Assembly: GCF_000165835.1 (NCBI RefSeq)
Contig: NC_014640.1
Coordinates: 868,001-932,000, forward strand
Reading direction: 5' to 3'
Origin: Achromobacter xylosoxidans A8
GTDB taxonomy: Bacteria > Pseudomonadota > Gammaproteobacteria > Burkholderiales > Burkholderiaceae_B
DNA length: 64,000 bases
In this document: positions 11,971 to 25,989 of the stretch, one piece after another
Layout: every line of letters begins with the position of its first letter
Numbering within the stretch: the stretch's first letter is position 1
Notes under the pieces: generated by a model
Database searches by the model: none
What the model was told of the DNA's origin: nothing
What the model saw: only the letters and a program-made list of their open reading frames with translations
Made by a program: the position numbers and the translations under genes

Positions 11971-12046
11971 GGGTTGTTAGCTCAGTCGGTAGAGCAGCGG
12001 ACTTTTAATCCGTTGGTCGCGAGTTCGAGTCTCGCACAACCCACCA
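11971..12046 (+). tRNA. tRNA-Lys (anticodon UUU)
   Basis: A 76-base cloverleaf with encoded CCA. The acceptor arms GGGTTGT and ACAACCC pair perfectly. The D-loop TAGCTCAGTCGGTAGA, the anticodon loop CTTTTAA and the T-loop GTTCGAGTC are present. It differs from the second tRNA-Lys at 40910 mainly in the acceptor, T stem and anticodon. Confidence 0.97.
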
Positions 12047-12099
12047 CCCCAATTCCCGCAGTACGCAGCAGCGCCGTCCAAGCATTGCTGACCAAGAAG

Positions 12100-12127
12100 A
12101 AACGCCGCTATCTCTAGCGGCGTTTTT
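12100..12127 (+). terminator. terminator after tRNA-Lys(UUU)
   Basis: An 11-bp stem AAACGCCGCTA / TAGCGGCGTTT with loop TCTC is followed by a T run. It may also serve the convergent chemoreceptor gene that ends at 12211. Confidence 0.85.
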
Positions 12128-12210
12128 CGTTGGTGGCTGGGTTATTGAACCAGTTGGGGCGGGAGTGGCTGAAAGCGGCGCGTGTCGCGATCGGCCCCCC
12201 TGCAATTCTC

Positions 12211-13845
12211 CTACGTCGACGCCGCGAACGCGATAAGCGCGGGCTCGGCCATCGGTACAGGCCGCGAGGTGACGGACGATGCGGTCTTGAACACTTCGAC
12301 CGCCTGCAGCAGATCCCGCGCCTGTTCAGCCATGGAAAGCGCCGCCGCCGCGGATTCCTCGACCAAGGCCGCATTCTGCTGCGTCACGGAATCCAGCTGG
12401 GCGATGGCCACGTTGACCTGTTCAATGCCGATGGCCTGTTCGCGCGAGGCTGTCGCGATCTCTCCGGTTATTGTCTTCATGCGCATGACCGACGTGACGA
12501 CGTCCTCCATGTCTTGGCCTGCCCGTACGGCGAGGTCCCGGCCCGCCTGGACCACGGAAGTCGAGGTCTCGATCAGATCCTTGATTTCCCTGGCGGAGGT
12601 GGCGCTGCGCTGGGCCAGCGCGCGGACTTCGCCGGCCACCACGGCGAAGCCCCGACCCTGGTCCCCGGCTCTTGCGGCTTCCACTGCCGCGTTCAGCGCA
12701 AGTATGTTCGTCTGAAAGGCGATGCTCTCGATCAGCGACACGATCTGCCCGACCTTTTCGGAATTGGTGGAGATCTCTGTCATGGCCGCCAGCATTTCGG
12801 ATACGACCCCGCCCGCTTTCTCCGCAGCCCTGGCGCCTTCGGAGGCCAGTTCATCGCCGCTGGCCGCATTGTCCTGATTCAGCCGCACGGTGGACGTCAG
12901 CTGTTCGATGCTGGCCGCGGTCTCTTCCAACGACGCTGCCTGCTCTTCAGTGCGGTGCGACAGGTCGGCATTGCCTTGGGCAATCTGACCTGCCGCCGTC
13001 GAGATGGACGCGGCGGAAGATTTGATCGCATCGACGATTCTGGACAGGCGCGATCGCATGGTTTCCAGCCCGTGCATCAGGCTGTGGTCATAGCGGGGAT
13101 CGAGCTGCAGCCGGCTGCTCAGATCGCCATCGGCGATGTTCACCGCCAGAAGCTGCGCATCGCCAGGATCGCCACCCAATTGGCGCAGGATGCTGCGCGC
13201 CGTGAGACAGGCAGCAGCCACGCCAAGCAACAGCGCGACCACGACGGTTATTCCCACCGCCCACTGCAATTGGTTCGCGAGGGTCCGGGTATCCGCCGCA
13301 CGCGCGTCATTGATCTGCGTCTCGAGCGCGGCGAGCGTGGACAGTGTCTCTTGGAGCACGCGCTGCTTGGGCCGCAATTCATCCTCCAATAGGTGCTGCG
13401 CGGCCTGCCGGTCACCGTTCATGCCTTCTTCCTGCACGCGAACGAACAGCGAGCGCATGTCTTGTTGTGCGGCCCCAGCGGCGGCGAACAGACGTGATTC
13501 CTCGCTGGTGGTATTGGAGCGGCTCGAGAACATGCCGCCCAGCCGATTTCGCGATTCGTTGTAGAGCTTCTCGGCTTCATTCGCCCGCAGCACTTCGGCC
13601 TGCAGCACTTTCGGATCTGTGAGGACCAGGATGTTGCGGATCGCGATGGCCTGTTCCTGGACCTGGTAGCGCATATCGATGGCCAGGCGCCGCTGTTCAT
13701 TGTTGATGGCGGTGATCTGGTAGACATCCTGCTCCAACGCCCGGATGCCGAACGTGCCCAGCACGCCAGACACCAACAGCGCCACCATGATCATTGCAAA
13801 GCCCATGGCGAGGCGGGTACGCATCTTCAGGTTTGACGGTTTCAT
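12211..13845 (-). CDS. methyl-accepting chemotaxis protein
   Basis: A 544-residue chemoreceptor. TM1 lies at about 12-33 and a four-helix periplasmic ligand domain follows. TM2 is at about 190-212 (GITVVVALLLGVAAACLTA), then a HAMP domain starting around GGDPGDAQ and a cytoplasmic signalling rod. The rod carries the invariant hairpin-tip segment FQTNILALNAAVEAARAG near residue 380. The C-terminus (AEPALIAFAAST) has no NWETF-like CheR-binding pentapeptide. The ATG at 13845 gives a normal Tar-like N-terminus; the frame extends upstream through the promoter region but that part is unlikely to be translated. The conserved element at 13897-13961 lies just upstream and is shared with the MFS/LysR genes. 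Confidence 0.93.
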   Translation of the reverse strand: MKPSNLKMRTRLAMGFAMIMVALLVSGVLGTFGIRALEQDVYQITAINNEQRRLAIDMRYQVQEQAIAIRNILVLTDPKVLQAEVLRANEAEKLYNESRNRLGGMFSSRSNTTSEESRLFAAAGAAQQDMRSLFVRVQEEGMNGDRQAAQHLLEDELRPKQRVLQETLSTLAALETQINDARAADTRTLANQLQWAVGITVVVALLLGVAAACLTARSILRQLGGDPGDAQLLAVNIADGDLSSRLQLDPRYDHSLMHGLETMRSRLSRIVDAIKSSAASISTAAGQIAQGNADLSHRTEEQAASLEETAASIEQLTSTVRLNQDNAASGDELASEGARAAEKAGGVVSEMLAAMTEISTNSEKVGQIVSLIESIAFQTNILALNAAVEAARAGDQGRGFAVVAGEVRALAQRSATSAREIKDLIETSTSVVQAGRDLAVRAGQDMEDVVTSVMRMKTITGEIATASREQAIGIEQVNVAIAQLDSVTQQNAALVEESAAAALSMAEQARDLLQAVEVFKTASSVTSRPVPMAEPALIAFAAST

Positions 13846-13896
13846 TGCTCTTTCGCTTTCAAAATGGAATTTCTGTATTCGGCTTACTCCGTCCGG

Positions 13897-13961
13897 ACTA
13901 TACGGATGGGCTGCACGCAGAAAAAGACAGAAATTTTTTTCCACCGAGTACTTTTTTCTAT
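13897..13961 (-). promoter_or_regulatory. conserved three-part promoter element, copy A (chemoreceptor)
   Basis: On the + strand: ACTATACGG at 13897-13905, AAAAAGACAGAAA from 13921, and a T6 run with CTA at 13952-13960. On the gene strand ACTATA reads TATAGT, a good -10 hexamer about 50 bases before the start codon. The TTTCTGTCTTTTT block then falls at about -35 to -45. The same blocks with the same spacings recur at 19778, 22141 and 22350. Confidence 0.6.
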
Positions 13962-14019
13962 CTTGTGAAAGACCGAGGACCGATGCGTGCGGCGCGTTCG
14001 CGCCGCTGTGCGAAAGCAC

Positions 14020-15756
14020 TCAAGCGTCTTCGGATTGCGTAATGACGCAGTTGCGGCCAGAGGCCTTGGCGCGATAGAGCAGCTCGTCTGCTTGCTTCAG
14101 CAGGGCATCGATATCGTGGATTTCATCCGCCGGCGCGCAGACCACGCCAAAACTGCTGGTGATGGACTCTATGGTCTTGCCGTCCAGCGGTACCGACAGA
14201 CGCTCGACGCGGCGGCGCATGCTCTGCGCCATTGCGCTGGCCTGCGCGGTGCTGCGGACCGTGCACAGCACGGCGAATTCCTCACCGCCGATGCGCGCCA
14301 CGATGTCCGAGCGGCGCCATGTCTGGTGGCATGCTTGCGCCACGGCCACCAGCACGTTGTCGCCGCCGGCGTGGCCGTAGGAATCGTTGATCCGCTTGAA
14401 ATGGTCGATGTCGAAGACGATCAGCGTCAGCATCTGCCCTGGCTCATCCAGGCTGGCGCACAAGGCTTCGGCGCGCGCATGAAACGCGCGCCGGTTGAGC
14501 AATCCCGTGAGGAAGTCTGTCTCCGCCAACGCGGCCAGGTCGGCGATGAGCCGCTCGCGCTCATGTTCCGTGCGGGACTTGGCGATGGCGTTGTCCTTCA
14601 ATGTCTGTATGGCATCGAACAGACCGCGGACCTCCTTGCGATAGCCGGCGGCAGAGATCGGCGCGGGGGCGTTGTCGTTGAGTGAGTTGATGATCTCGGT
14701 GGCCACGACGAATGGGCGTATCAGACGCCAGCGGAACTTGGTGAATCCCCAGGTGGCGGCCAGCAGCAGCACGATCGCGACCGTCGTGGTGGTGACCAGT
14801 TCCGTCAGCGCATTGACGCGTTGGCGTTCCAGCAGCTTTTGCAATACGTTCAGCACTTCATCGCGGAAGTCGAGAATGGATTGCATCAGGGGAACGTAAC
14901 GTTCCTGCATGCCAGCCTCGTGAGGCGGCGAGTGGGCTAGTGCAGGTGGCGCGTGGCGCAGCGCTGCGATGTACTCCAGGCCCGCGCCAAAGTACTCGTA
15001 TTGAACCCGCGGATACGCTCGGGTTTCAAGGTCCGCATGGGTGGAAAGCTGTACTTCGAGCAGCGCGCGCAATTGGGCGACGCGGCCCAGTTGTTGCTCG
15101 ATACGCTGCGTTTCCTCGTCGCTTAAAGGGCGGCGCTGAACCTGTGCAGGCATGAAGGCGGAACCAAGCAGGCCGGCCTGCTCGCGCAGGCCCGCCGCCA
15201 GCAAGGCAATGGTCATGAGGCCGGGGCTTTCTACTTCATGGCGGATCACAACGGCGGAGTTGTCGAGCGCGGTTTCCTCAAGCGCGGGAATGAGCCCGGC
15301 CATGATCACCACCACGTCGTTGAGCTCCTCGGCACTGATCAGCGTACGTCGCCTGGCAATGAGCCGATCTGCCAGGGCGCGGTGTTGGACCAGGGTTCGC
15401 GCGATATGCTGGATGGTGCCTTGCGCGTCCCTGCAGCCGTCGCAGTTGCGAGTCTGGTGCAGCGCCAGCAGCTCGGCGATTCTGCCGTCGCTGGCGCTGC
15501 GCGCGAGCTGCAACTCCTGCTGCCTGGCCTCGGATACGGGCTGGCCTTCTATCAGTGCGGCATTCATCGACCCGCGCTCCATCAGGACGGCAGCCATCGC
15601 GTCCAGCGTGCCCTGGACGACGCACAGGCTCGACCTGGCATCGCGCGCCGCCGTATGGGCGTGCCAGCTATGGGTCAGTTGGATGCCGATCAGCGCACTG
15701 ACCGGGATCAGAACGCCGATGACATATGCCACCGTGTAGCGATTCAGGGATTTCAA
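14020..15756 (-). CDS. membrane-anchored diguanylate cyclase (GGDEF)
   Basis: A 578-residue protein. An N-terminal membrane segment at about 8-27 and a second near 325-345 (TTTTVAIVLLLAATWGF) enclose a helical periplasmic sensor region containing a CDGC pair. The C-terminal GGDEF domain makes cyclic-di-GMP. The active-site GGEEF lies near 485, and the inhibitory I-site RRSD stands nine residues upstream with PleD-like spacing, so product inhibition is expected. The start appears to be TTG at 15756 with no clear ribosome site. A GTG eight codons later is the alternative. It lies next to the chemoreceptor but does not share its promoter element. Confidence 0.9.
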   Translation of the reverse strand: MKSLNRYTVAYVIGVLIPVSALIGIQLTHSWHAHTAARDARSSLCVVQGTLDAMAAVLMERGSMNAALIEGQPVSEARQQELQLARSASDGRIAELLALHQTRNCDGCRDAQGTIQHIARTLVQHRALADRLIARRRTLISAEELNDVVVIMAGLIPALEETALDNSAVVIRHEVESPGLMTIALLAAGLREQAGLLGSAFMPAQVQRRPLSDEETQRIEQQLGRVAQLRALLEVQLSTHADLETRAYPRVQYEYFGAGLEYIAALRHAPPALAHSPPHEAGMQERYVPLMQSILDFRDEVLNVLQKLLERQRVNALTELVTTTTVAIVLLLAATWGFTKFRWRLIRPFVVATEIINSLNDNAPAPISAAGYRKEVRGLFDAIQTLKDNAIAKSRTEHERERLIADLAALAETDFLTGLLNRRAFHARAEALCASLDEPGQMLTLIVFDIDHFKRINDSYGHAGGDNVLVAVAQACHQTWRRSDIVARIGGEEFAVLCTVRSTAQASAMAQSMRRRVERLSVPLDGKTIESITSSFGVVCAPADEIHDIDALLKQADELLYRAKASGRNCVITQSEDA

Positions 15757-15827
15757 AAGAACAGTGAAGACGAAGAGATTTCAACGTGCGGAAGGCGTCG
15801 GAAAGGAGGCGCTGCGTCGCGTACGCT

Positions 15828-16094
15828 TTATTCCTTTGCCCCGAGCGTGTCTTGCAGTATGACCTTGTTGAGCGCCAGGATGGCGATCAAGCGCTCTAGG
15901 CGATTGCACTCGTTCTCGAGTTTGTTCAACAGTTTCAGTTCGTAGGACGCCAGCCCGTCGTAGTGCACTTTCCATGCGTGGAAAGTGGCTTCGCTCACGC
16001 CCATGCGCGTGCAGATATCGGATATCGGCGTGCCTAGCGTTGCCTGCCTCAACGCGTGCCTGATCTGTTCTTCCGTAAAGCCCGACCGGTCCAT
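15828..16094 (-). CDS. orphan IS3-family OrfA-like helix-turn-helix protein
   Basis: An 88-residue protein resembling IS3-family OrfA: TEEQIRHALRQATLGTPISD and MGVSEATFHAWKVHYDG form the helix-turn-helix, and LENECNRLERLIAILALNKV gives a leucine-zipper-like tail ending in LGAKE. A strong GGAGGT site stands eight bases before the ATG at 16094. No OrfB, inverted repeats or target duplication can be found around it. It sits 83 bases after the tandem peptidase genes and 71 bases before the diguanylate cyclase. It could be an IS remnant or a domesticated DNA-binding protein. Confidence 0.75.
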   Translation of the reverse strand: MDRSGFTEEQIRHALRQATLGTPISDICTRMGVSEATFHAWKVHYDGLASYELKLLNKLENECNRLERLIAILALNKVILQDTLGAKE

Positions 16095-16177
16095 GTGATG
16101 CACCTCCGTATCTTGAGATGAAGCCAACACCTGCCGCGGGGACGGAAGCGTCGGCGCAATCCTTTCGGTTTTCTGTG

Positions 16178-17269
16178 TCAAGCCGCCTGCAAGCCGCGCA
16201 GCGCCTGCAGAACCGCCACCCGGGTCTGCCCCAGCACCATGCCGTGCCAGTTTTCCTCGTTGCAATAAAACGCTTCCAGTGTGGTTTGCAGGATGGTTCT
16301 TCGTAACTCCTGGGAGGCCTCGGGATGCGCGTGCAGCCAGTTCCGGCCGCATAGCGCATGCACCATCGCGTCGAAGCGTACCGCCCCGAACACGATGGCC
16401 ATCGAGGTCGGCAAGGACAACGGGCAGGCTTGATAGATCAGATCGGCGAGCTGGCCGGAGATATCGACTGACACCGAGTTGCCCTGGTAGGGGACGGTAA
16501 TGTCGCTGCCCCACCATTGGCGCGCGCGGGATACCTCGGCATCGTCGTGGCGGCCGGCATAGAGCTTTTCGCCATGGCCGCGAGGCCCCCAACCGGTATG
16601 CACGTCGATCCAGCCGATATGGGTGCGTGTGCGCGCATGCTCGTGCAGGATGCGGCGCAGGTTCAATAGCGATGCCGCGGGGCGGTCGCCTCCGTAGAAC
16701 AGGCCGTCGGCGTGCGTATACTGGCCGCGCGAGACAGCCTGCGCGAAGGCGGACTGCCCGTGCTCGGCGATGAATTGAGCGATCTGTTGCTGGTTTGATG
16801 GCGTGGGAGGCCATTCCTCAGGCAGCAGCAGGTCGTGTATCCGCGCATACTCAGGGTTCGCGGGCAGCGGCCGCCCATCGAAGGGCAGTCCATTGCGGTT
16901 CAGGTCTATATTGCATTCGTCGGTGCGCGCGATCCACGAATAACCGTAAGGATTGACCGCGTGCACTAGCAGCAAGGCCACGCCAGCCTCGCGTGCCCGG
17001 CTCAGCATGACGCTATCGTCCAGTAACGCCAGTTGGCAGCCCGAACCGCAGAAACCTTCCACTCCCAATACCGCGGAAGTCATGATGAGGATACGGTCGG
17101 CATCGGGATCGCCGATGTAGGCGACATCCGTGGCCAGCGCTTCGCCTTCCCTACCGGCGTGGTCGATGCCGTAGGAATGGAACGAATCGGCAAGCGGCCT
17201 GGCTGCCAGCGCAAAGCGCTCGCGCGCCTGGGCGTAGCTGCGGGAGAAGTAGCTGGCGCTGGTTCGCAT
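16178..17269 (-). CDS. DUF2817 (M14-like) protein, probable pseudo-peptidase
   Basis: A 363-residue member of the DUF2817 family related to zinc carboxypeptidases, and a tandem copy of the upstream gene. The family zinc motif HGVEGF is here LGVEGF: His68 is replaced by Leu, while Glu71 is kept. The family segment LEFGT with the likely catalytic Glu is IVFGA here. NPYGYSW, NIDLNRN and IDVHTG are retained. It therefore probably folds like its partner but cannot hydrolyse normally. The start overlaps the stop of the upstream copy as TGATG, so the two are translationally coupled. A scaffold, inhibitor or ligand-binding role is inference. Confidence 0.85.
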   Translation of the reverse strand: MRTSASYFSRSYAQARERFALAARPLADSFHSYGIDHAGREGEALATDVAYIGDPDADRILIMTSAVLGVEGFCGSGCQLALLDDSVMLSRAREAGVALLLVHAVNPYGYSWIARTDECNIDLNRNGLPFDGRPLPANPEYARIHDLLLPEEWPPTPSNQQQIAQFIAEHGQSAFAQAVSRGQYTHADGLFYGGDRPAASLLNLRRILHEHARTRTHIGWIDVHTGWGPRGHGEKLYAGRHDDAEVSRARQWWGSDITVPYQGNSVSVDISGQLADLIYQACPLSLPTSMAIVFGAVRFDAMVHALCGRNWLHAHPEASQELRRTILQTTLEAFYCNEENWHGMVLGQTRVAVLQALRGLQAA

Positions 17270-18360
17270 CAAGCCTCCTGCAGACCGGAGAGAGCCTGCA
17301 GCACGGCGACGCGACTCTGGCCCAGGATCATGCCGTGCCAATCGGCGGCGTTGCAGTAGAACGCTTCCAGCGTGGCGTTCAGGATGGCGTCGCGCTTGGC
17401 GTCGTCGGCCCCAGGATGCGCAAGCAGCCAGTTGCGGCCGCGCAGCGCTTCGATCATGTCTTCAAAAGGCAGAGTGCCGAATTCCAGTGCCATCGGCGTG
17501 TGCTGGGCGTCGGGGCAGGTCTGGTAGATCAGGCCGGCCAACTGGCCGGTAATGTCCGCGGAAGCGGAGCTGCCTTCGTAGGGAACCGCGATATCGCTGC
17601 CCCACCATTGGCGCGCGCGTGCGACAGCGGCGGCGTCGCGGCGCCCCGCGTATATTTTTTCGCCGTGCCCGCGCGGCCCCAAGCCTGTATGCACATCGAT
17701 CCAGCCGATATGCTTGCTACGGCTGCCGTGCTGCTGAAGGATATGGCGCAGGTTCAGCAGCGATGCCGTAAGGTGCGTGCCGCCGTAGAACAGGCCGTCG
17801 GCATGCGTGTACTGCCCGCGGGTCACGACCTGCGCGAACGCCGACCGGCCATGCTCGGCGATATAGGCATCGATCCGCGAGGCGTTCGCAGCCGTGGCTG
17901 GCCATTCCGCAGGCAGCAGCAGGTCATGTATCCCCGCGTATCCGGGGTTCTGGGGCAGGGGGCGTCCGTCGAAGGACTGGTCGTTGCGGTTCAGGTCGAC
18001 ATTGTCTTCGTTCGTGCGCGCCAGCCAGGAAAACCCATACGGGTTGATGGCGTGCACGAGCAGCACGGCCACGCCGGCTCTGCGGGCGCGCTCCAGCATG
18101 GCGGCATCGTCCAGCAGGGCGAGTTGACAGCCCGAGCCGCAGAAGCCCTCCACGCCATGTGTGGCGGAGGTCATTATCAGCAGCCGTTCAGCGTCGGTCG
18201 GGCCGATCAGCGCGACGTCGGTCGCCAGGGCTTCGCCGTGGCGGCCGGCGGGTTCGATGACATAGGATTGAAACTGTGTGGCCAGGGGTTTGGCCGCCAG
18301 CACGAAGCGATGGCGCGCTTCTTCGTAGCTGCGGGAAAAGTAGCTGGAACCGTGCTGCAT
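17269..18360 (-). CDS. DUF2817 (M14-like) zinc peptidase/amidase
   Basis: A 363-residue putative metallo-carboxypeptidase or amidase of the DUF2817 family, with the expected residues intact. These are HGVEGF (His68, Glu71), NPYGFSW, NVDLNRND, IDVHTG as a further zinc-ligand segment, and LEFGT with the likely catalytic Glu near the C-terminus. No signal peptide is visible, so it acts in the cytoplasm. It starts inside the stop of the MFS gene (TAATG overlap) and overlaps the next, degenerate copy in the same way. The operon therefore runs permease, peptidase, pseudo-peptidase. The substrate is unknown but is presumably what the permease imports. Confidence 0.85.
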   Translation of the reverse strand: MQHGSSYFSRSYEEARHRFVLAAKPLATQFQSYVIEPAGRHGEALATDVALIGPTDAERLLIMTSATHGVEGFCGSGCQLALLDDAAMLERARRAGVAVLLVHAINPYGFSWLARTNEDNVDLNRNDQSFDGRPLPQNPGYAGIHDLLLPAEWPATAANASRIDAYIAEHGRSAFAQVVTRGQYTHADGLFYGGTHLTASLLNLRHILQQHGSRSKHIGWIDVHTGLGPRGHGEKIYAGRRDAAAVARARQWWGSDIAVPYEGSSASADITGQLAGLIYQTCPDAQHTPMALEFGTLPFEDMIEALRGRNWLLAHPGADDAKRDAILNATLEAFYCNAADWHGMILGQSRVAVLQALSGLQEA

Positions 18361-19706
18361 TAGGCCTCCTGGCCGTCGATGTCGTCGTGGGTGCGGTCGT
18401 CAATCCAGAACAGCACCACCGTGGAGAGGGCTATGGCCACCATCAGGAACCACGCCGGCGCCATGGAATTTCCGGTCACGTGCAGCAGCCAGGTCACGAA
18501 GAACTGCGCAAAGCCGCCGAACACGGATATGCCCAATCCATACACGACGGACATGCCGGTCGTGCGCACGGCCTTGGGGAAGAGTTCGGGAAGCATCGTG
18601 AATGCGGGCGCCGACTGCAGGGCCACCAGCAGCGCGAACAGGGCGACGAGCAGCATCAGCCGCTCGGTGCTGGGCGCGGCCATCAGCCATTGGAAGCAGG
18701 GGAGCAGGACGATCAGGGTGGCGAGGCGCGACCAGAAGATCACGCGCTTGCGGCCGTAGCGGTCGGCCAGCATGCCGACGAACGGGGCAATCAGGAAGCC
18801 GACCGCGCCGAACACGACGCTGGCCGATAGCGTGGACGTGGCCGGCAAGCCCAGTTCCCGGTTGGCGTACGCCGGCATGTAGAAGCTGAGGATCTGCGTG
18901 CTGACCATGCCACCGATCAACAGCAGGATGCCCTTCAATATGGTGACCTTGTACTCGGCAAAGATGCGGCGCAACGGCTGGTGAGGGGTGGCACGGCGTA
19001 GTGCCGCAGGCTGGGGTTTGCCGGAGTCCGGGGGCGAGCTCGTCAGTGTTTCCTCAAGGTTGCGGCGGATGTAGGCGCCGACGGGCACGGTCAGGATGCC
19101 GATGACGAACGGCACGCGCCAGCCCCAGGCGTGCATCTGCTCGGTGGTCAACCCCATGGTCAGCAGCGTCACGACCAGCGCCCCAAGCATCACGCCTAGC
19201 GACTGGCTGCCGAACTGCCAGCTGGAATAGAAGCCGCGCTTGCCGCGCGGCGCGTGTTCGACCAGCAGGGTGGTCGAGGCTCCGACCTCGCCGCCGGCGG
19301 CGAAGCCCTGGATCAGGCGGGCCAACACCATCATGACCGGGCCGACCATGCCCAATTGTGCATAGGTGGGCGCCACGGCGATCAGGGCACAGCCCAGGCC
19401 CATCAGCCACAGTGTCAGCGTCATGGCCGCGCGGCGGCCGTGGCGGTCGGCATAGGAGCCGATCAGCATGCCGCCCACGGGCCGCATCAGGAACCCCACG
19501 CCGAAAGTGGCGGTGGTCAACAGCAATTGGCCGTAGCCCGAGGCGGCCGGAAAGAACAGTGGACCCAGCACCAGCATCAGGAAAGTGAAAACGGTGAAGT
19601 CGAAGAATTCGAGTGCGTTGCCGATGGTGGTGCCGGCGATGACGCGCCGGCGCATGGACGGCGTATGTAGTGAGTTGGTCGCAGCTGCTGCGATTGCGAT
19701 AGACAT
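18360..19706 (-). CDS. MFS transporter, metabolite:H+ symporter (ProP-like) type, copy 1
   Basis: A 448-residue permease with about 12 membrane segments. The MFS signature GSYADRHGRRAAM lies in the loop between segments 2 and 3, and ARLIQGFAAGGEVGASTTLLVEHAP is typical of the MHS family (ShiA, KgtP, ProP). It imports an organic acid or related solute. The ATG at 19706 follows an AGGGG site. It is near-identical to the copy at 20726 over the first about 170 residues and more diverged after that. It leads the operon with both DUF2817 genes. The conserved element is upstream at 19778. Confidence 0.9.
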   Translation of the reverse strand: MSIAIAAAATNSLHTPSMRRRVIAGTTIGNALEFFDFTVFTFLMLVLGPLFFPAASGYGQLLLTTATFGVGFLMRPVGGMLIGSYADRHGRRAAMTLTLWLMGLGCALIAVAPTYAQLGMVGPVMMVLARLIQGFAAGGEVGASTTLLVEHAPRGKRGFYSSWQFGSQSLGVMLGALVVTLLTMGLTTEQMHAWGWRVPFVIGILTVPVGAYIRRNLEETLTSSPPDSGKPQPAALRRATPHQPLRRIFAEYKVTILKGILLLIGGMVSTQILSFYMPAYANRELGLPATSTLSASVVFGAVGFLIAPFVGMLADRYGRKRVIFWSRLATLIVLLPCFQWLMAAPSTERLMLLVALFALLVALQSAPAFTMLPELFPKAVRTTGMSVVYGLGISVFGGFAQFFVTWLLHVTGNSMAPAWFLMVAIALSTVVLFWIDDRTHDDIDGQEA

Positions 19707-19777
19707 GGTTTCCCCTGGTGTCTGTTTGAGGAGGAGCTGATCCGTGGTCCCGGGCCTTGGGCCACTCCCCGAAGGGC

Positions 19778-19842
19778 ACTATACGGATGCCCTGAGATAA
19801 GAAAAAGACAGAAAATTTGTTTTGGTGCTCACATTTTTATAT
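19778..19842 (-). promoter_or_regulatory. conserved three-part promoter element, copy B (MFS copy 1 operon)
   Basis: On the + strand: ACTATACGG at 19778-19786, AAAAAGACAGAAAA from 19802, and TTTTTATATAG from 19834. The spacings equal copy A within one base. The gene-strand -10 TATAGT places the transcript start near 19771 and gives a leader of about 65 bases. Confidence 0.6.
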
Positions 19843-19953
19843 AGTGCGGCCCCCTTTTTTTTTGCACCAAATTTCCCTGATGCCGTTGGCAGTCCGATGG
19901 ATGGATTGGACCTTGCATTGCATGTGCCTCGGGCTGCGTGGGCAGGATGGCTC

Positions 19954-20685
19954 TCAGGTTGTCGTGGGCTGCCTCTGGCCCTGCAGCGTCCATTCCCGTT
20001 GCAACTTGTCGTCGCGCAGATGGTCGCGCGGCCGGGTCTCAGGCATGGCCATGAATGTGTCGGAGGTGACGGCGCCGATGTCCTGAAGCGCGCGGTACGC
20101 CGTTGACTCACGCCAGGCGGCGGCAGCCTGGGGAGTGGGCCAGTGGGTGATCAGCAAATAGACAACACCGCCGGTTTCCGGCGGGGCGTCGTCGGGGCCG
20201 ATGAGCTGGTAGGGACGGGCTTCGTACTCCCCCGTCAGGGTTTCCAAGGGGGAGGCGCCAATATCGGCCAGACAGGTCAGGATTTCTGTCAAGGCGCGGA
20301 GTTGCGCGTCGGCCAGGGGGATGGGGACAGTCAGACGAGTTTCGGTCATGACTTTTCCGGTCATGGCTTCACCGGGTGCGGGTTCGCGCCATTTGCGCAT
20401 ATAGACCGCTGTCCACCAACGGTCGTATGCTGCCTTCTGGGCAGCCTTGTGCCGCGGGTGGTTATGCCAGGCGTCCATTTGTTCGGCGCTGGCGAAGCGC
20501 ACGCCTACATACCGCCAGGCTGAATCAAGGATTGCCCCGCCATACACCGATTCAAAGCCATCCTGGCTGACCGCGACAGGATGCAGTGCATCGTTGAAAC
20601 GGGCGAAACCGTCCTCTTTGCCGGGAACGATCTTGAAGCCGCTCTCCAGCACGGTTCGCGTGGACTGCACGGGTGATTTCGTCAT
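19954..20685 (-). CDS. ABM-like (antibiotic biosynthesis monooxygenase-fold) two-domain protein
   Basis: A 243-residue protein that seems to hold two dimeric alpha-beta barrel modules. The first, at about 15-110, has FKIVPGKEDGFARFNDAL and ASAEQMDAWHNHPRHKAAQ, the latter typical of ABM/heme-degrading-fold proteins. The second, at about 120-225, has YLLITHWPTPQAAAAW. ABM-fold proteins include monooxygenases and small-molecule isomerases; no specific reaction can be assigned. The ATG at 20685 with a GAGGAT site is preferred to an upstream start that would overlap the permease gene. It follows MFS copy 2 by 40 bases and is probably its operon partner. Confidence 0.7.
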   Translation of the reverse strand: MTKSPVQSTRTVLESGFKIVPGKEDGFARFNDALHPVAVSQDGFESVYGGAILDSAWRYVGVRFASAEQMDAWHNHPRHKAAQKAAYDRWWTAVYMRKWREPAPGEAMTGKVMTETRLTVPIPLADAQLRALTEILTCLADIGASPLETLTGEYEARPYQLIGPDDAPPETGGVVYLLITHWPTPQAAAAWRESTAYRALQDIGAVTSDTFMAMPETRPRDHLRDDKLQREWTLQGQRQPTTT

Positions 20686-20725
20686 GTGATCCTCAATGTT
20701 GAAGGGAAATTCGGGCTTTACGGAC

Positions 20726-22072
20726 TCACGCTGCCTGCGCGTCGATGTCGTCATGGGTGCGGTCGTCTATCCAGAACAGCACCAGCGTTGAAAGCGCCGT
20801 TGTCACCATCAGGAACCACGCTGGAGACATGGGGTTTTCAGTGGCATGCAGCAGCCAGGTCACGAAGAATTGCGCGAAGCCGCCGAACACGGAGATGCCC
20901 AGTCCGTACACCACCGACATGCCGGTCGTGCGCACGGATTTTGGGAAGAGTTCAGGCAGCATCGTGAAGGCCGGCGCCGACTGGAGGGCCACCAACAGGG
21001 CGAAGGCGGCGGTGAGCAGCATCAGCCGTTCGGTGCTGGGCGCGGCCATCAGCCAATGGAAACCGGGCAGCAGGATGGCAAGCGTTGTGACGCGAGACCA
21101 GAAGATCACGCGCTTGCGGCCGTAGCGGTCGGCCAGCATGCCGATGAAGGGGGCGCCTGCGAAGCCGAGAGCGCCGAAAACGACGCTGGCCGACAGCGTG
21201 GAGGTGGCAGGCAGACCCAGTTCCCGGTGGGCGTAGGTTGGAATGTAGAAGTTGAGGATCTGCGTGCTGACCATGCCGCCGATTACCAGCAGCATGCCTT
21301 TGAGTACGCTTGCTTTATGCTCGGTGAATATCCGGCGCAGGGGCTGATGCGTGGCGGTGCGACGCAAGCCCTTGGTGTGCGCCGGCTTGGCGGCCGGGGG
21401 CTCGACAGTCAGGGTTTCTTCCAGATTGCGGCGGATGTAGGCGCCTATCGGCACGGTCAGGATGCCGATGAAGAACGGGACCCGCCAGCCCCAGGCCTGC
21501 ATCTGCTCCGTGGTCAGCCCCATGTTGAGCAGCATCACGACCACTGCTCCGAGCGTGACGCCGAGGGCCTGGCTGCCGTATTGCCAGCTGGAATAGAAGC
21601 CACGCTTGCCGCGCGGCGCGTGTTCGACCAGCAGGGTGGTCGAGGCCCCGACCTCGCCGCCGGCGGCGAAGCCCTGGATCAGGCGGGCCAGCACCATCAT
21701 GACCGGGCCGACCATGCCCAATTGCGCATAGGTGGGCGCCACGGCGATCATGGCACAGCCCAGGCCCATCAGCCACAGCGTCAGGGTCATGGCCGCGCGG
21801 CGGCCGTGGCGGTCGGCATAGGAGCCGATCAGCATGCCACCCACGGGCCGCATCAGGAACCCCACGCCGAAAGTGGCGGTGGTCAACAGCAATTGGCCGT
21901 AGCCCGAGGCGGCCGGAAAGAACAGTGGGCCCAGCACCAGCATCAGGAAAGTGAAGACGGTGAAGTCGAAGAATTCGAGTGCGTTGCCGATGGTGGTGCC
22001 GGCGATGACGCGCCGGCGCATGGATGGCGTATGTAGCGCGCTGGGCGCGGCTGCGGCGATTGCGATAGACAT
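20726..22072 (-). CDS. MFS transporter, metabolite:H+ symporter (ProP-like) type, copy 2
   Basis: A 448-residue paralogue of the permease at 18360, with the same signatures (GSYADRHGRRAAM, RLIQGFAAGGEVGAS). About the first 170 residues differ from copy 1 at only a handful of positions. The central loop (LTVEPPAAKPAHTK versus LTSSPPDSGKPQP) and the C-terminal half are more diverged, a mosaic pattern pointing to gene conversion. It leads a short operon with the ABM-like gene and carries the same upstream element at 22141. It probably transports a related but not identical solute. Confidence 0.9.
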   Translation of the reverse strand: MSIAIAAAAPSALHTPSMRRRVIAGTTIGNALEFFDFTVFTFLMLVLGPLFFPAASGYGQLLLTTATFGVGFLMRPVGGMLIGSYADRHGRRAAMTLTLWLMGLGCAMIAVAPTYAQLGMVGPVMMVLARLIQGFAAGGEVGASTTLLVEHAPRGKRGFYSSWQYGSQALGVTLGAVVVMLLNMGLTTEQMQAWGWRVPFFIGILTVPIGAYIRRNLEETLTVEPPAAKPAHTKGLRRTATHQPLRRIFTEHKASVLKGMLLVIGGMVSTQILNFYIPTYAHRELGLPATSTLSASVVFGALGFAGAPFIGMLADRYGRKRVIFWSRVTTLAILLPGFHWLMAAPSTERLMLLTAAFALLVALQSAPAFTMLPELFPKSVRTTGMSVVYGLGISVFGGFAQFFVTWLLHATENPMSPAWFLMVTTALSTLVLFWIDDRTHDDIDAQAA

Positions 22073-22140
22073 GGTGTCCCCTCGTGTCTGTTGAGAGGGG
22101 TCGGCTCGTGATTCCGGGCCTTCGACTCCTCTTCGAGGGC

Positions 22141-22206
22141 ACTATAAGGACGCCTTGGAATAAGAAAAAGACAGAATTTAAGTTCTAATGAATACTTTTT
22201 TTTATA
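22141..22206 (-). promoter_or_regulatory. conserved three-part promoter element, copy C (MFS copy 2 operon)
   Basis: On the + strand: ACTATAAGG at 22141-22149, AAAAAGACAGAA from 22165, and a T8 run then ATAG from 22196. The distances are 24 and 31 bases, as in copies A and B. The gene-strand -10 reads TATAGT and the transcript start would lie near 22134. Confidence 0.6.
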
Positions 22207-22349
22207 GGGTAAATTACCCAGGAAATTCAGTGCAGATACCGGGGCGAGTGGCGTTTCTACCCCTGGGGACGCCGTGGCTGCCTAGCCGAGGCGGCGCTTC
22301 TGCCGCAGGCCGGCCTTGACTTCGGACCCGGGACTTCCGCTCGCAGGCG

Positions 22350-22411
22350 CCATACGGTTGCCATAGAATCAAAAAGACAGAAATCGGGTGCTGCGATCCG
22401 TTTTTTTTATA
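22350..22411 (+). promoter_or_regulatory. conserved three-part element, copy D (LysR gene upstream)
   Basis: CATACGG at 22351-22357, AAAAAGACAGAAA from 22371 and T8-ATAT from 22401. The first spacing is two bases shorter than in copies A-C. Relative to the LysR gene the element is inverted compared with the other three, as expected for an autoregulatory site within a divergent control region. Confidence 0.5.
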
Positions 22412-22439
22412 TCTCCACAAATCCGCCGGAGCCGAACGC

Positions 22440-23405
22440 ATGAACCTACGTCAATTGCGCGCCTTCACGCTGATTGCCGAGCATGGCAGCATCCGCGCCG
22501 CGGCACGCGCGCTCTCAGTAACGCAGCCTGCCGCGACACGCAGCTTGCGCGAACTGGAGCAGAGCGTGGGTGTCGAGCTGGTACGCCGCAGCGTCAAGGG
22601 CGTGGAACTGACGACCTACGGCGAAGCGTTGTACAAGCGGGCCATCGTCATCATGCAGGAGGCCCGGCGGGCTCGCGAGGAAATCGGACAGATGCGCGAT
22701 GGCGAGGGCGGCACGTTGAACTTGGCCGTGAGCTCGGCGGCGCTGGTGGTCGTGCCGGACGCGCTGGTCGCTTTTCGCGCACGCATGCCGCGCGTGGCGG
22801 TTTCGTTCAATGAAGTGGCGCCGCCCTACAGCCATGAGCAGCTGGAGTCGGGCCGCTACGATTTTCTCGTGCAGACCGAGTACGACGGGGAGATCAGCGA
22901 CGGCTTCGCGCACCGGCCGCTGTTCACGCTGCCGCTCGCGGTCGGTGCGCGTCTGGGCCACCCGTTGCGCAGGGCGCGCAGTCTGGCGGAACTGCATGAC
23001 GCGCCTTGGCTGGTGCCAGGCAATTCGGAAGCTCCTGCAAATCTGTTGAGGATGGCCTTCGCCGCGCACGGCCTGTCCCTGCCGCGCGACACCATATCCT
23101 GTCATTCGGTGGCGGTTGCGTTGGCCATCATGGCCAAAAGCGATGCGCTGGGCATCTTCGTGCGCCCATTGTTCGAGCACGATCTCCTGCCGTCGAACAT
23201 GCGCATGATGGCATTGGCGCACGAGCTTCCCTCTGCCCGGATCTCGATCCTGGCGAGGAAGGAATCGCCGCCCACGCCAGCCGCCGAGTGCTTTATCGAT
23301 TGCCTGATCGCCACTCGGGACGCCATGGCCACCTCCAGCAAGGAAGGCCGTCCGGCGCGCAAGAATCCGGTCTACATGGACCTCGCGGAACCTGTTCGTC
23401 CATGA
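22440..23405 (+). CDS. LysR-family transcriptional regulator
   Basis: A 321-residue regulator. The winged helix-turn-helix fills residues 1-60 (FTLIAEHGSIRAAARALSV, QPAATRSLRELEQ). A linker helix and an effector-binding domain (about 92-295) follow, and a basic tail ends the protein. It is the only regulator gene inside the block that carries elements A-D, and copy D lies 29 bases before its ATG. The simplest inference is that it binds these elements and controls the two permease operons, the chemoreceptor and itself. Its effector is unknown. It converges with the LuxR-type gene. Confidence 0.92.
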   Translation: MNLRQLRAFTLIAEHGSIRAAARALSVTQPAATRSLRELEQSVGVELVRRSVKGVELTTYGEALYKRAIVIMQEARRAREEIGQMRDGEGGTLNLAVSSAALVVVPDALVAFRARMPRVAVSFNEVAPPYSHEQLESGRYDFLVQTEYDGEISDGFAHRPLFTLPLAVGARLGHPLRRARSLAELHDAPWLVPGNSEAPANLLRMAFAAHGLSLPRDTISCHSVAVALAIMAKSDALGIFVRPLFEHDLLPSNMRMMALAHELPSARISILARKESPPTPAAECFIDCLIATRDAMATSSKEGRPARKNPVYMDLAEPVRP

Positions 23406-23426
23406 GACCGGCATGCGGGGCGCGGG

Positions 23427-24230
23427 TCAACGCGCCGCCCTGCTGCGTTTGGGCATGCTCGCGCCCAGCAGCACCATGAGTTCCCGATGGTTGCGTACGC
23501 CCAGGTGCTGGAACGCCCGGTAGCGATACGTCAGCGCGGTGGTCTCCGATACGCCCATTTCGCGAGCGGCCTCCCGGGTGGTCAGGCCGTCCAGCACATG
23601 CGTGACCAGTTGCCGTTCGCGGCCCGATAGCTTGGTCATGAGCTGTACCTGCAGCGGCTGGTCAGCGGGCGCGCGCCGGGTCACCTGGACATGGCGCATG
23701 ACGGCCGCCGCAATCAGGGGAGCGTGCTGCGACATGCGCTCGAAATCCTTGGGGCCATAGTCGGGATATGAGAAATTCCGGTGCAGGCTGACCGCCACCC
23801 GATAGCCGTCGGGAAACACGGCCAGCAGCGACATGCGCTCGCGGATGCCGGGGTCGTCGTAGCAGACGCGGCGGTAGTGCGCATCCGCGACCTCTGCCGC
23901 GAACTGGTGCCCGATCCACAGCTGGCGCGCTTTCGCCGGCTTGCGCCTGGACAGCCAGATCATGTTTGAGTCCTGCTTGTCGAAGCCCAGGCGCATGTAT
24001 TCGATGGCGGTCAAGGTCGCCACTTCGCCGATGGCGCTGGCGCTGGAAACGGCTTCCACGCGGCCGCTGCTGCGCAGCGCGAATACCGTGCAATGGCTGG
24101 CGGGCACCGTAGCGCCCAATGCGTCCAGCACCTCGGCGGCGAAGTTCTCGGCGCCGATGGCATTCATCAGCGCGACACTCAGATCCTGGCCGGGAGGCGG
24201 GGGGCGCGGCGGCAGCGGCAGCAGTTTCAT
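23427..24230 (-). CDS. LuxR-family regulator with GAF-like sensor domain
   Basis: A 267-residue regulator. An N-terminal alpha-beta sensor region (about 15-185) looks GAF-like. The C-terminal LuxR/FixJ helix-turn-helix lies at about 198-258 (LSGRERQLVTHVLDGLTTREAAREMGVSETTALTYRYRAFQHLGV). It lacks the aspartate-acceptor receiver domain and the usual acyl-homoserine-lactone pocket motif. It is divergent from the aromatic-catabolism operon, and an 18-bp near-palindrome lies between them, so it probably controls that operon. Confidence 0.85.
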   Translation of the reverse strand: MKLLPLPPRPPPPGQDLSVALMNAIGAENFAAEVLDALGATVPASHCTVFALRSSGRVEAVSSASAIGEVATLTAIEYMRLGFDKQDSNMIWLSRRKPAKARQLWIGHQFAAEVADAHYRRVCYDDPGIRERMSLLAVFPDGYRVAVSLHRNFSYPDYGPKDFERMSQHAPLIAAAVMRHVQVTRRAPADQPLQVQLMTKLSGRERQLVTHVLDGLTTREAAREMGVSETTALTYRYRAFQHLGVRNHRELMVLLGASMPKRSRAAR

Positions 24231-24243
24231 AGCGGGTTAGCCT

Positions 24244-24261
24244 GTCCTGATTAATTAGGAC
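24244..24261. promoter_or_regulatory. near-palindromic candidate operator between the luxR-type gene and the monooxygenase operon
   Basis: GTCCTGATTAATTAGGAC is an 18-base inverted repeat with one mismatched pair, placed 13 bases before the regulator start and 75 bases before the monooxygenase start. This symmetry and size fit a LuxR-type dimer site. The assignment is inference. Confidence 0.45.
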
Positions 24262-24336
24262 ATATTAACGAGTCCGCCCCAGCAGAATATGACGCAAGCC
24301 AATACGGTTGTTTGATGACACGATCAGGACTTGCGC

Positions 24337-25989
24337 ATGCCCCTAGAAAGAATCGGACCCTTCGAGTACCGGCGCTTCCCGCCCTCGCTTCCCCCGCTCG
24401 CGCCGCCAGGCGAGGAGGCCCGGCATCATCGCGTGCTGATCGCAGGCGGTGGTCCGGTGGGGCTGGCGGCAGCGTTGGGATTGGCCAGGCTGGGCATAGA
24501 CAGTGTCGTGATCGAGGCCGACGACTCGGTCTGCGAGGGCAGCCGCGCAGCCTGTATTTCGCGCCGCAGCCTTGAAATCCTGGAGCGTCTGGGCGTGGCG
24601 CCGGCCTTCATGGAAAAGGGCCTGGCCTGGACGCGGGGCCGCAGCTATTACGGCACCGAGGAAGTGCTGGTGTTCGATATGCCGTCGTCGCAGGGCGACA
24701 AGTACCCGCCGATGATCAATCTGCAGCAGTACTACATCGAACAGTTCCTGCTGGATGCCATCGACGAAATCAACCGCCGTTTCCCGGGACGGGTGGATAT
24801 CCGCTGGGCCAGCAAGGTGTCCGAATGCAGGCCCGACGCGGCCGGCGTGACGCTGCGGATCGAAAATCCGCTGGGAAGCTACGACACACGCGCCGATTGG
24901 CTGCTGGCCTGCGATGGCGGCCAGAGCTTCATACGCGCCAGCCTGGGCCTGGAGCTGAAAGGCACCGGCTACCAAGGCCGCTATGCAATCGTCGATATCG
25001 AACTGGCGAGCGAGCATCCGGCGGAGCGCCGCGCCTGGTTCGATCCGCCCTGGGCGCGCGGAACCACCATATTGATGCACCGTCAGCCGGACAACATCTG
25101 GCGCGTGGACTACCAATTGAAGGCCGGCGCGGACGCAGCGCAAGCCTTGCAGCCGGACCCGGTGCGCGCCTTTGTGCAGACCCATCTGGATGCCATCGGC
25201 GAAGGGCATCTGCCGTGGGCGCCCGTGTGGACTTCGGTCTACCGCGCTGGCGCGATGACGCTGGATGCCTATCGTCATGGTCGCATCCTGTTCGCGGGCA
25301 ACGCCGCGCATGCCATGCCGATTTTCGGCGTGCGCGGGCTGAACTCGGGCTTTGACGACGCCGACAACCTGGTCTGGAAACTCGCTGCCGTGTTGCAAGG
25401 GAAGGGCACGGAAGCCCTGCTGGACAGCTATTGCAGCGAGCGGCGGCAGGCCTTCCACATCAACGCCGAGAACGCCATGCGCAGCACCGAATTCATGTCG
25501 CCGCCACATCGGGGTTTCGATCTGATGCGCGAGGCCAGCCTGTCGTTGGCCGGCCGGCATCCGGGGATTGCGCGCGTGGTCAATCCGCGGCAGACGCAAG
25601 CCCTCGCCTATGCGCATTCGCCGCTGTCGACGGAAGACGAGGGTGGCGGCGCATGGGCGCCTGGCGCGCCGTTGGTGGATGGCCAGACTGCGGATGGCCG
25701 ACACCTGACCGATCTGCTGACACCTGGCGGTTTTACTTTGCTGGTGTTCGCGTCATGGCCGGAGCAGCACGCGCTGGAAGCGATGACGGCCTCGGCGGCG
25801 TGGCGATTCCTGCCTTGCCACTGCGTCGCGTTTGCGGCCGCCGATGCGATGTGGCCCGGGTCCGAGGCCGGCATGGCCTACCTCCTGAGGCCTGACGGCC
25901 ATGTTTGCGGCCGGTGGCGTTCGCCGTCGCTGGACACGGTGCTATCCGCCATCCAACGCGCCTGCGGCGCACCAGGAGCCATCCAATGA
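24337..25989 (+). CDS. FAD-dependent aromatic monooxygenase (MhpA/PheA-like)
   Basis: A 550-residue class A flavoprotein hydroxylase. The dinucleotide motif VLIAGGGPVGLAAALGLARLG lies at about 34-54. The substrate/FAD motif that usually reads GDAAH..P..G.G.N is GNAAHAMPIFGVRGLNSG here, with Asn replacing the normal Asp. A thioredoxin-like C-terminal domain ends the protein, as in phenol hydroxylases. The ATG at 24337 has AGGA seven bases upstream. It leads an operon with DUF2783, receptor, VOC and FAH genes; ring hydroxylation would be the first step. The stop overlaps the DUF2783 start (ATGA). Confidence 0.88.
   Translation: MPLERIGPFEYRRFPPSLPPLAPPGEEARHHRVLIAGGGPVGLAAALGLARLGIDSVVIEADDSVCEGSRAACISRRSLEILERLGVAPAFMEKGLAWTRGRSYYGTEEVLVFDMPSSQGDKYPPMINLQQYYIEQFLLDAIDEINRRFPGRVDIRWASKVSECRPDAAGVTLRIENPLGSYDTRADWLLACDGGQSFIRASLGLELKGTGYQGRYAIVDIELASEHPAERRAWFDPPWARGTTILMHRQPDNIWRVDYQLKAGADAAQALQPDPVRAFVQTHLDAIGEGHLPWAPVWTSVYRAGAMTLDAYRHGRILFAGNAAHAMPIFGVRGLNSGFDDADNLVWKLAAVLQGKGTEALLDSYCSERRQAFHINAENAMRSTEFMSPPHRGFDLMREASLSLAGRHPGIARVVNPRQTQALAYAHSPLSTEDEGGGAWAPGAPLVDGQTADGRHLTDLLTPGGFTLLVFASWPEQHALEAMTASAAWRFLPCHCVAFAAADAMWPGSEAGMAYLLRPDGHVCGRWRSPSLDTVLSAIQRACGAPGAIQ

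Follow-up and report, generated by a model that had tools for sequence, protein, structure and literature searches.

The window analyzed here, a 64,000-nucleotide stretch of the Achromobacter xylosoxidans A8 genome, holds four copies of a short DNA element upstream of genes for a chemoreceptor and two permeases and beside a gene for a LysR-type regulator. The question that this locus raises is whether the four copies are control sites of that regulator. A preliminary description had proposed such a regulon, and we regard this proposal as partly supported: its core is strengthened by comparison with related genomes, and its functional claims stand as predictions. Based on the sequence comparisons described below, we place at roughly three in four the probability that the element is the operator and promoter of the LysR-type protein encoded at 22440 and that this protein acts there as an activator.

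The 12-mer AAAAAGACAGAA was read at 13921-13932, 19802-19813, 22165-22176, and 22371-22382 (copies A, B, C, and D, respectively), which places the four copies where the preliminary description had put them. Each 12-mer is preceded by ATACGG or ATAAGG (at 13900, 19781, 22144, and 22352 in copies A-D), at a distance of 21, 21, 21, and 19 bases, and each is followed by a T run with TA, so the two-block spacing and T run described earlier hold for all four copies. The copies had also been called evenly spaced, which is true of the blocks within each copy and not of the placement of the copies along the DNA. The -10 hexamer TATAGT reported for three copies was seen on the gene strand of copies A (13897-13902), B (19778-19783), and C (22141-22146), ∼52-73 bases before the ATGs of the chemoreceptor, MFS1, and MFS2 genes (13845, 19706, and 22072, respectively). 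In copy D, this operon-side -10 has decayed to TATGGC, and the GACAG block and T run are retained. When copy A was inspected at the 17-bp spacing of a -35 element, the hexamer present was TTTTTC, a poor one as judged by eye.

Table 1. Element copies and genes of the locus (positions within the window)
Feature	Position	Strand	Remarks
Copy A	13897..13965	-	upstream of chemoreceptor gene; R2 E 2.8e-6
Copy B	19778..19846	-	upstream of MFS1-M14b-M14a-HTH-GGDEF; R2 E 9.3e-9
Copy C	22141..22209	-	upstream of MFS2-ABM; R2 E 1.2e-9
Copy D	22347..22415	.	lysR-proximal, presumed ancestral; R1 E 3.8e-9, without R2 match at E≤1
LysR-type regulator, 321 aa	22440..23405	+	Pfam HTH_1 and LysR_substrate; presumed element binder
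MFS2, metabolite/H+ symporter-like permease	20726..22072	-	Pfam MFS_1/Sugar_tr; NCBIfam below cut-off
ABM (antibiotic biosynthesis monooxygenase-like) domain protein	19954..20685	-	Pfam E 2.2e-7
MFS1 permease	18360..19706	-	Pfam; 87% identical to MFS2
DUF2817/M14-fold protein b, HxxE intact	17269..18360	-	Pfam, AlphaFold and Foldseek, motif
DUF2817/M14-fold protein a, HxxE His replaced by Leu	16178..17269	-	Pfam, motif
HTH_Tnp_1 protein, 88 aa	15828..16094	-	Pfam; conserved in group
GGDEF-domain protein, listed start TTG	14020..15756	-	Pfam
Methyl-accepting chemotaxis protein, 4HB sensor and MCPsignal	12211..13845	-	Pfam

The element recurs before the genes that the preliminary description had named. 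Copy A precedes the chemoreceptor gene; our analysis adds that the DUF2817 genes come after copy B, behind MFS1, and the ABM gene after copy C, behind MFS2. From strand and spacing, we infer that the genes downstream of copies B and C form two operons, MFS1-M14b-M14a-HTH-GGDEF and MFS2-ABM, with the GGDEF gene the probable last member of the first. The HTH_Tnp_1 protein resembles OrfA of IS3 elements, is present without the rest of a transposase, shares 81-93% identity with its counterparts in the other five members of the group defined below, and is perhaps domesticated. When positions 12000-24500 were searched for RNA families, only a tRNA match at 12000-12043, cut by the edge of the searched region, reached threshold; a known RNA family, such as an RNA leader, was rejected as the identity of the element, over which no threshold match fell. 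When residues 1-200 of the receptor were compared by sequence with solved structures, no match at E≤0.1 was obtained.

Of five occurrences of the 12-mer in the 7.36-Mb genome, four lie within this 8.5-kb stretch, a concentration beyond chance; the reversed 12-mer, used as a control, occurs once. The remaining exact match (C1:1500593) was not counted as a copy, since neither a matching first block nor a T run was seen around it and the profiles did not report it. With up to three mismatches, the composite ATAMGG-N15-12-mer is found at copies A, B, and C with none and at two further sites with three, one of them the distant osmC site described below; the reversed composite gives two sites at the same limit. 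Two profiles were built. Profile R1 contains 31 of the 44 distinct copies, including those of the window, and because the window's copies were in R1, profile R2 was built from 19 copies that all come from outside the window's group. This group comprises six Achromobacter genomes (G000, G001, G004, G005, G017, and G042) defined by a LysR identity of at least 84% and common gene content. The genome-wide matrix scan suggested in the preliminary description was run with R2 over these six genomes. At E≤1, it finds copies C, B, and A and the distant site (E 0.03) in the window's genome and nothing else, so that copy D goes undetected at this limit; all 22 matches in the six genomes fall at this locus or at the osmC promoter, and the dispersed repeat that many copies within coding sequence or far from genes would have indicated is rejected. 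On the same six genomes, R1 gives four further matches elsewhere (E 0.03-0.9).

The element is the conserved feature of the lysR promoter region in the genus. Among the 43 Achromobacter genomes searched, 39 contain a LysR ortholog of at least 68% identity (in G028, included here, the gene is in two pieces). Strong R1 matches (E 3e-13 or better) were found in 39 of 39 genomes with the ortholog and in 0 of 4 without it, a split that ties the element to lysR and that applies equally to any other factor tied to the same block, because the element, lysR, MFS, and M14 genes nearly always travel as one. The four genomes lacking LysR (G015, G020, G024, and G025, each at least 99% complete) have no R1 match better than E 0.07. 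One of them, G025, has an M14 ortholog (73%; L162:6053-7123) without LysR, an MFS1-like gene in the stretch, or a strong element; because the MFS gene is missing too, this genome does not separate LysR from the operon.

When 27 orthologous promoters were aligned without gaps, 48 of 69 element columns were at least 90% conserved compared with 3 of 87 flanking columns, a contrast somewhat flattered because the 69-bp limits were chosen after conservation had been seen. This count covers 27 loci outside the group, with the six group loci and orthologs without a fetched locus left out. The DNA between the element and the lysR start is poorly conserved. Of the 38 relatives in which a LysR ortholog was found, 20 had their gene layout compared, and lysR is divergent from an MFS-M14 pair, with the element between them, in each of the 15 non-group loci laid out. 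Two genomes, G029 and G014, have a second MFS-M14 pair (L051:10197-12616 and L052:7798-10217, respectively), and R1 finds one element in each genome, at lysR.

Beyond the genus, R1 searches of 225 further family genomes at E≤0.01 yielded one strong match, in G088 (E 4e-16), at the same coordinates as the element in Bordetella genomosp. 5, on a contig with a gene for a LysR of 75% identity. Seven other genomes have weak single matches (E 6e-5 to 0.0096). On a Paraburkholderia contig (L084:873-6414), a DUF2817 gene (36%) and an OsmC-like gene are found in the vicinity of a gene for a 38%-identical LysR, an arrangement hinting at an older link among the LysR, DUF2817, and OsmC families.

Within the group, a counterpart of the element precedes the orthologous chemoreceptor gene in all five other genomes, so this copy is present in 6 of 6, as is a fifth site ∼630 kb from lysR (C1:259410-259452), upstream of an OsmC-like gene. 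Among the matches listed, receptor orthologs have 82-92% identity in these five genomes and the next best protein in the genus has 53%; OsmC relatives are at ∼90% in five group genomes and a remnant in G004, and the best outside those genomes reach 53-59%. In the window's genome, the osmC site carries TATAG at the corresponding end, has ACTATA and the 12-base block separated by the same 18 bases, and includes a T run with TTATA at its end. It is found by R1 in 6 of 6 group genomes (E 4e-5 to 0.017) and by R2 in 5 of 6 (E 0.03-0.45; missed in G001). By score alone its membership is marginal, and the case for it is carried by persistence in the six genomes: 19 core bases are invariant in all of them, and the site remains in G004, where the osmC gene is truncated, and in G042, where the flank on the CRP side has been replaced.

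The osmC site adjoins a gene for a CRP/FNR-type regulator (L156:4846-6297), which raises the prospect that this protein, or another DNA-binding protein such as a global regulator, binds the element and that lysR is merely one of its targets. Linkage to lysR is no proof of binding by LysR, and on its own it does not identify the binder, given that lysR, MFS, and M14 genes nearly always come as one block. We nonetheless consider another binder improbable, because the site is kept in G042 after loss of the original CRP side, the element is absent from 4 of 4 genomes without LysR, and in most genomes the copy beside lysR is the best preserved.

Binding by the LysR-type protein is also consistent with the architecture of the region. 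The regulator has the HTH_1 and LysR_substrate domains of its family, and a conserved control region lies between its gene and a divergent target operon. In two published accounts (PMC8407307, PMC11602165), control regions of LysR-type proteins are described as ∼50-60 bp long, with recognition taking place at an upstream site and activation at sites close to -35 and -10. The extent and position of the element fit the regions described there. As in this recognition- and activation-site model, the regulator gene here is divergent from an operon, and a region of the usual size lies upstream of a promoter with a weak -35. The locus differs from the model in that AAAAGACAG, the part kept in essentially all copies, is universal rather than a clear T-N11-A dyad, and in that the putative operator is present at several promoters, one of them ∼630 kb away. 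Among 31 copies, a T-N11-A pair occurs at columns 39-51 in 84% and at columns 21-33 in 81%, frequencies that AT-rich DNA easily gives, and the best dyad in these copies is imperfect, pairing 61% of positions; as a LysR-box signature, this pattern is suggestive, not proof.

If LysR binds the element, it could act mainly as a repressor, in which case the regulon would not be activated by LysR. Proteins of this type are able to act as repressors, and the -35 region is where the invariant block is found. The copies nevertheless keep a good -10 without a recognizable -35, which is the layout of an activator-dependent promoter; we rate repression as the main role slightly less probable still than binding by another protein.

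We propose the following history. Most Achromobacter species examined have one element of ∼69 bp, a putative control region with lysR on one side and, transcribed divergently from it, an MFS permease-M14 hydrolase pair on the other, and this arrangement is presumably ancestral. One end of the element would be the operon -10 (TATAGT or TATATT), and the T-rich TATA end would face lysR; between them, LysR would contact the AAAAGACAG block and the bases from there to the T run, replacing the missing -35. In the window's group, the element would then have been copied before the duplicated permease genes (copies B and C), the chemoreceptor gene (copy A), and the distant osmC-like gene, and the original copy D would afterwards have lost its operon-side -10.

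Copies B and C are not independent, because both precede duplicated MFS genes (87% protein identity); their leader sequences are also alike, and the receptor leader is different. This protein identity and the shared leader together indicate that these two copies come from duplication. That all copies are a mere repeat or duplication leftovers without a regulatory role is highly unlikely, given that the R2 search of the six genomes at E≤1 turned up no additional copies and that species lacking the duplication strongly conserve a single copy, even though copies B and C do accompany duplicated genes and leaders.

The proposed loss of the -10 can be followed among group members. In G004 and G005, an MFS gene comes directly after the lysR-proximal copy, which keeps TATAGT. 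This copy has a decayed -10 in G000, G017, and G042, where copy C lies ∼206 bases on and the GACAG block (with one change in G042) and the T run are kept. This pattern suggests separable functions, with the TATAGT end serving the operon and the remainder serving LysR and lysR. In G001, the lysR-proximal copy is only a weak remnant; because of this remnant and because R2 misses copy D, the autoregulation predicted for lysR does not seem to be kept everywhere.

In the activation model, inducer-bound LysR would switch on together the genes for import (two MFS permeases), hydrolysis (M14), and chemotaxis (the receptor), and jointly with these c-di-GMP signaling (GGDEF) and the OsmC-like protein. 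The bacterium may thus seek, import, and break down one compound as a single program.

The two DUF2817 proteins bear on what this compound might be. In public records such proteins are labeled M14 family metallopeptidase. The AlphaFold model of protein b has a mean pLDDT of 86 and matches M14 enzymes by Foldseek at a probability of 1.00, carboxypeptidase T giving the best E value (4.5e-6), with AstE-like proteins and the cyanophycin dipeptide hydrolase CphZ among its 50 matches listed; the fold is alike, whereas query-normalized TM-scores are 0.32-0.51 and identities 8-16% across these 50. By sequence, protein b gave a single match to solved structures, at E 0.31. The HxxE ... H residues bind zinc in M14 enzymes, and protein b has both the fold and these residues. 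Protein a differs from M14 enzymes in lacking the HxxE His, with Leu in its place in 6 of 6 group genomes; the His is retained in protein b and in all 17 M14 copies from 15 other loci. Protein a is under purifying selection despite this change, as its pairwise dN/dS is 0.03-0.08 (0.06-0.09 for protein b), and it is a candidate for a conserved pseudoenzyme beside an intact paralog. An amide- or peptide-like substrate or ligand is a guess, if a reasonable one. In another Achromobacter (L050:7527-15328), genes for an ABC transporter, two amidohydrolases, and a solute-binding protein lie downstream of the M14 gene in the same orientation, a neighborhood that is a possible clue to the substrate. 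Literature searches for DUF2817 by family name returned nothing relevant, and those for M14 family metallopeptidases in Achromobacter returned no report.

The nearest curated family of the regulator is AbgR (NF007307), against which it scores 174.9 bits, below the cut-off of 336; E. coli AbgR scores 629 bits, and the two proteins are 30% identical. The score rules out that they are the same regulator. The AbgR-abgABT system of E. coli, for use of p-aminobenzoyl-glutamate, also has a LysR-type gene divergent from hydrolase and symporter genes. AbgA and AbgB are M20-type hydrolases, and the abgT product is not known as an MFS protein; the hydrolase here has an M14-type fold according to the structural model. 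A second parallel is NahR of naphthalene plasmids, described as a LysR-type regulator of catabolic operons that include the chemoreceptor gene nahY (PMC8006333). There, nahY is co-transcribed with pathway genes, whereas the receptor gene here has its own copy of the element. A search of the literature on Achromobacter LysR regulons, transcriptomes, and chemotaxis, by title and start of abstract, found no report on this system.

This kind of regulon is already known; what is new is a predicted one, small and directly testable, that involves DUF2817 and an uncharacterized LysR-type regulator. It is of interest because it is small and has grown recently, and because it contains a conserved M14 paralog that lacks the HxxE His. 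Several stages of this growth can be seen in related genomes, among them a lone putative operator next to lysR, duplication of the cassette, recruitment of the chemoreceptor, the osmC site far away, and decay of the ancestral copy. More tentatively, and with the odds against the picture as a whole, one Achromobacter group may have turned a transport-and-hydrolysis switch into a program of behavior by spreading its LysR operator to a chemoreceptor gene, a probable unit ending in a diguanylate cyclase gene, and a distant OsmC-like gene, while keeping next to the intact M14 hydrolase, under strong purifying selection, a paralog without the His predicted to bind zinc, which may be a pseudoenzyme with a substrate-binding or regulatory role in that pathway. 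If the receptor and the regulator answer to the same compound, the ligand of one would point to that of the other.
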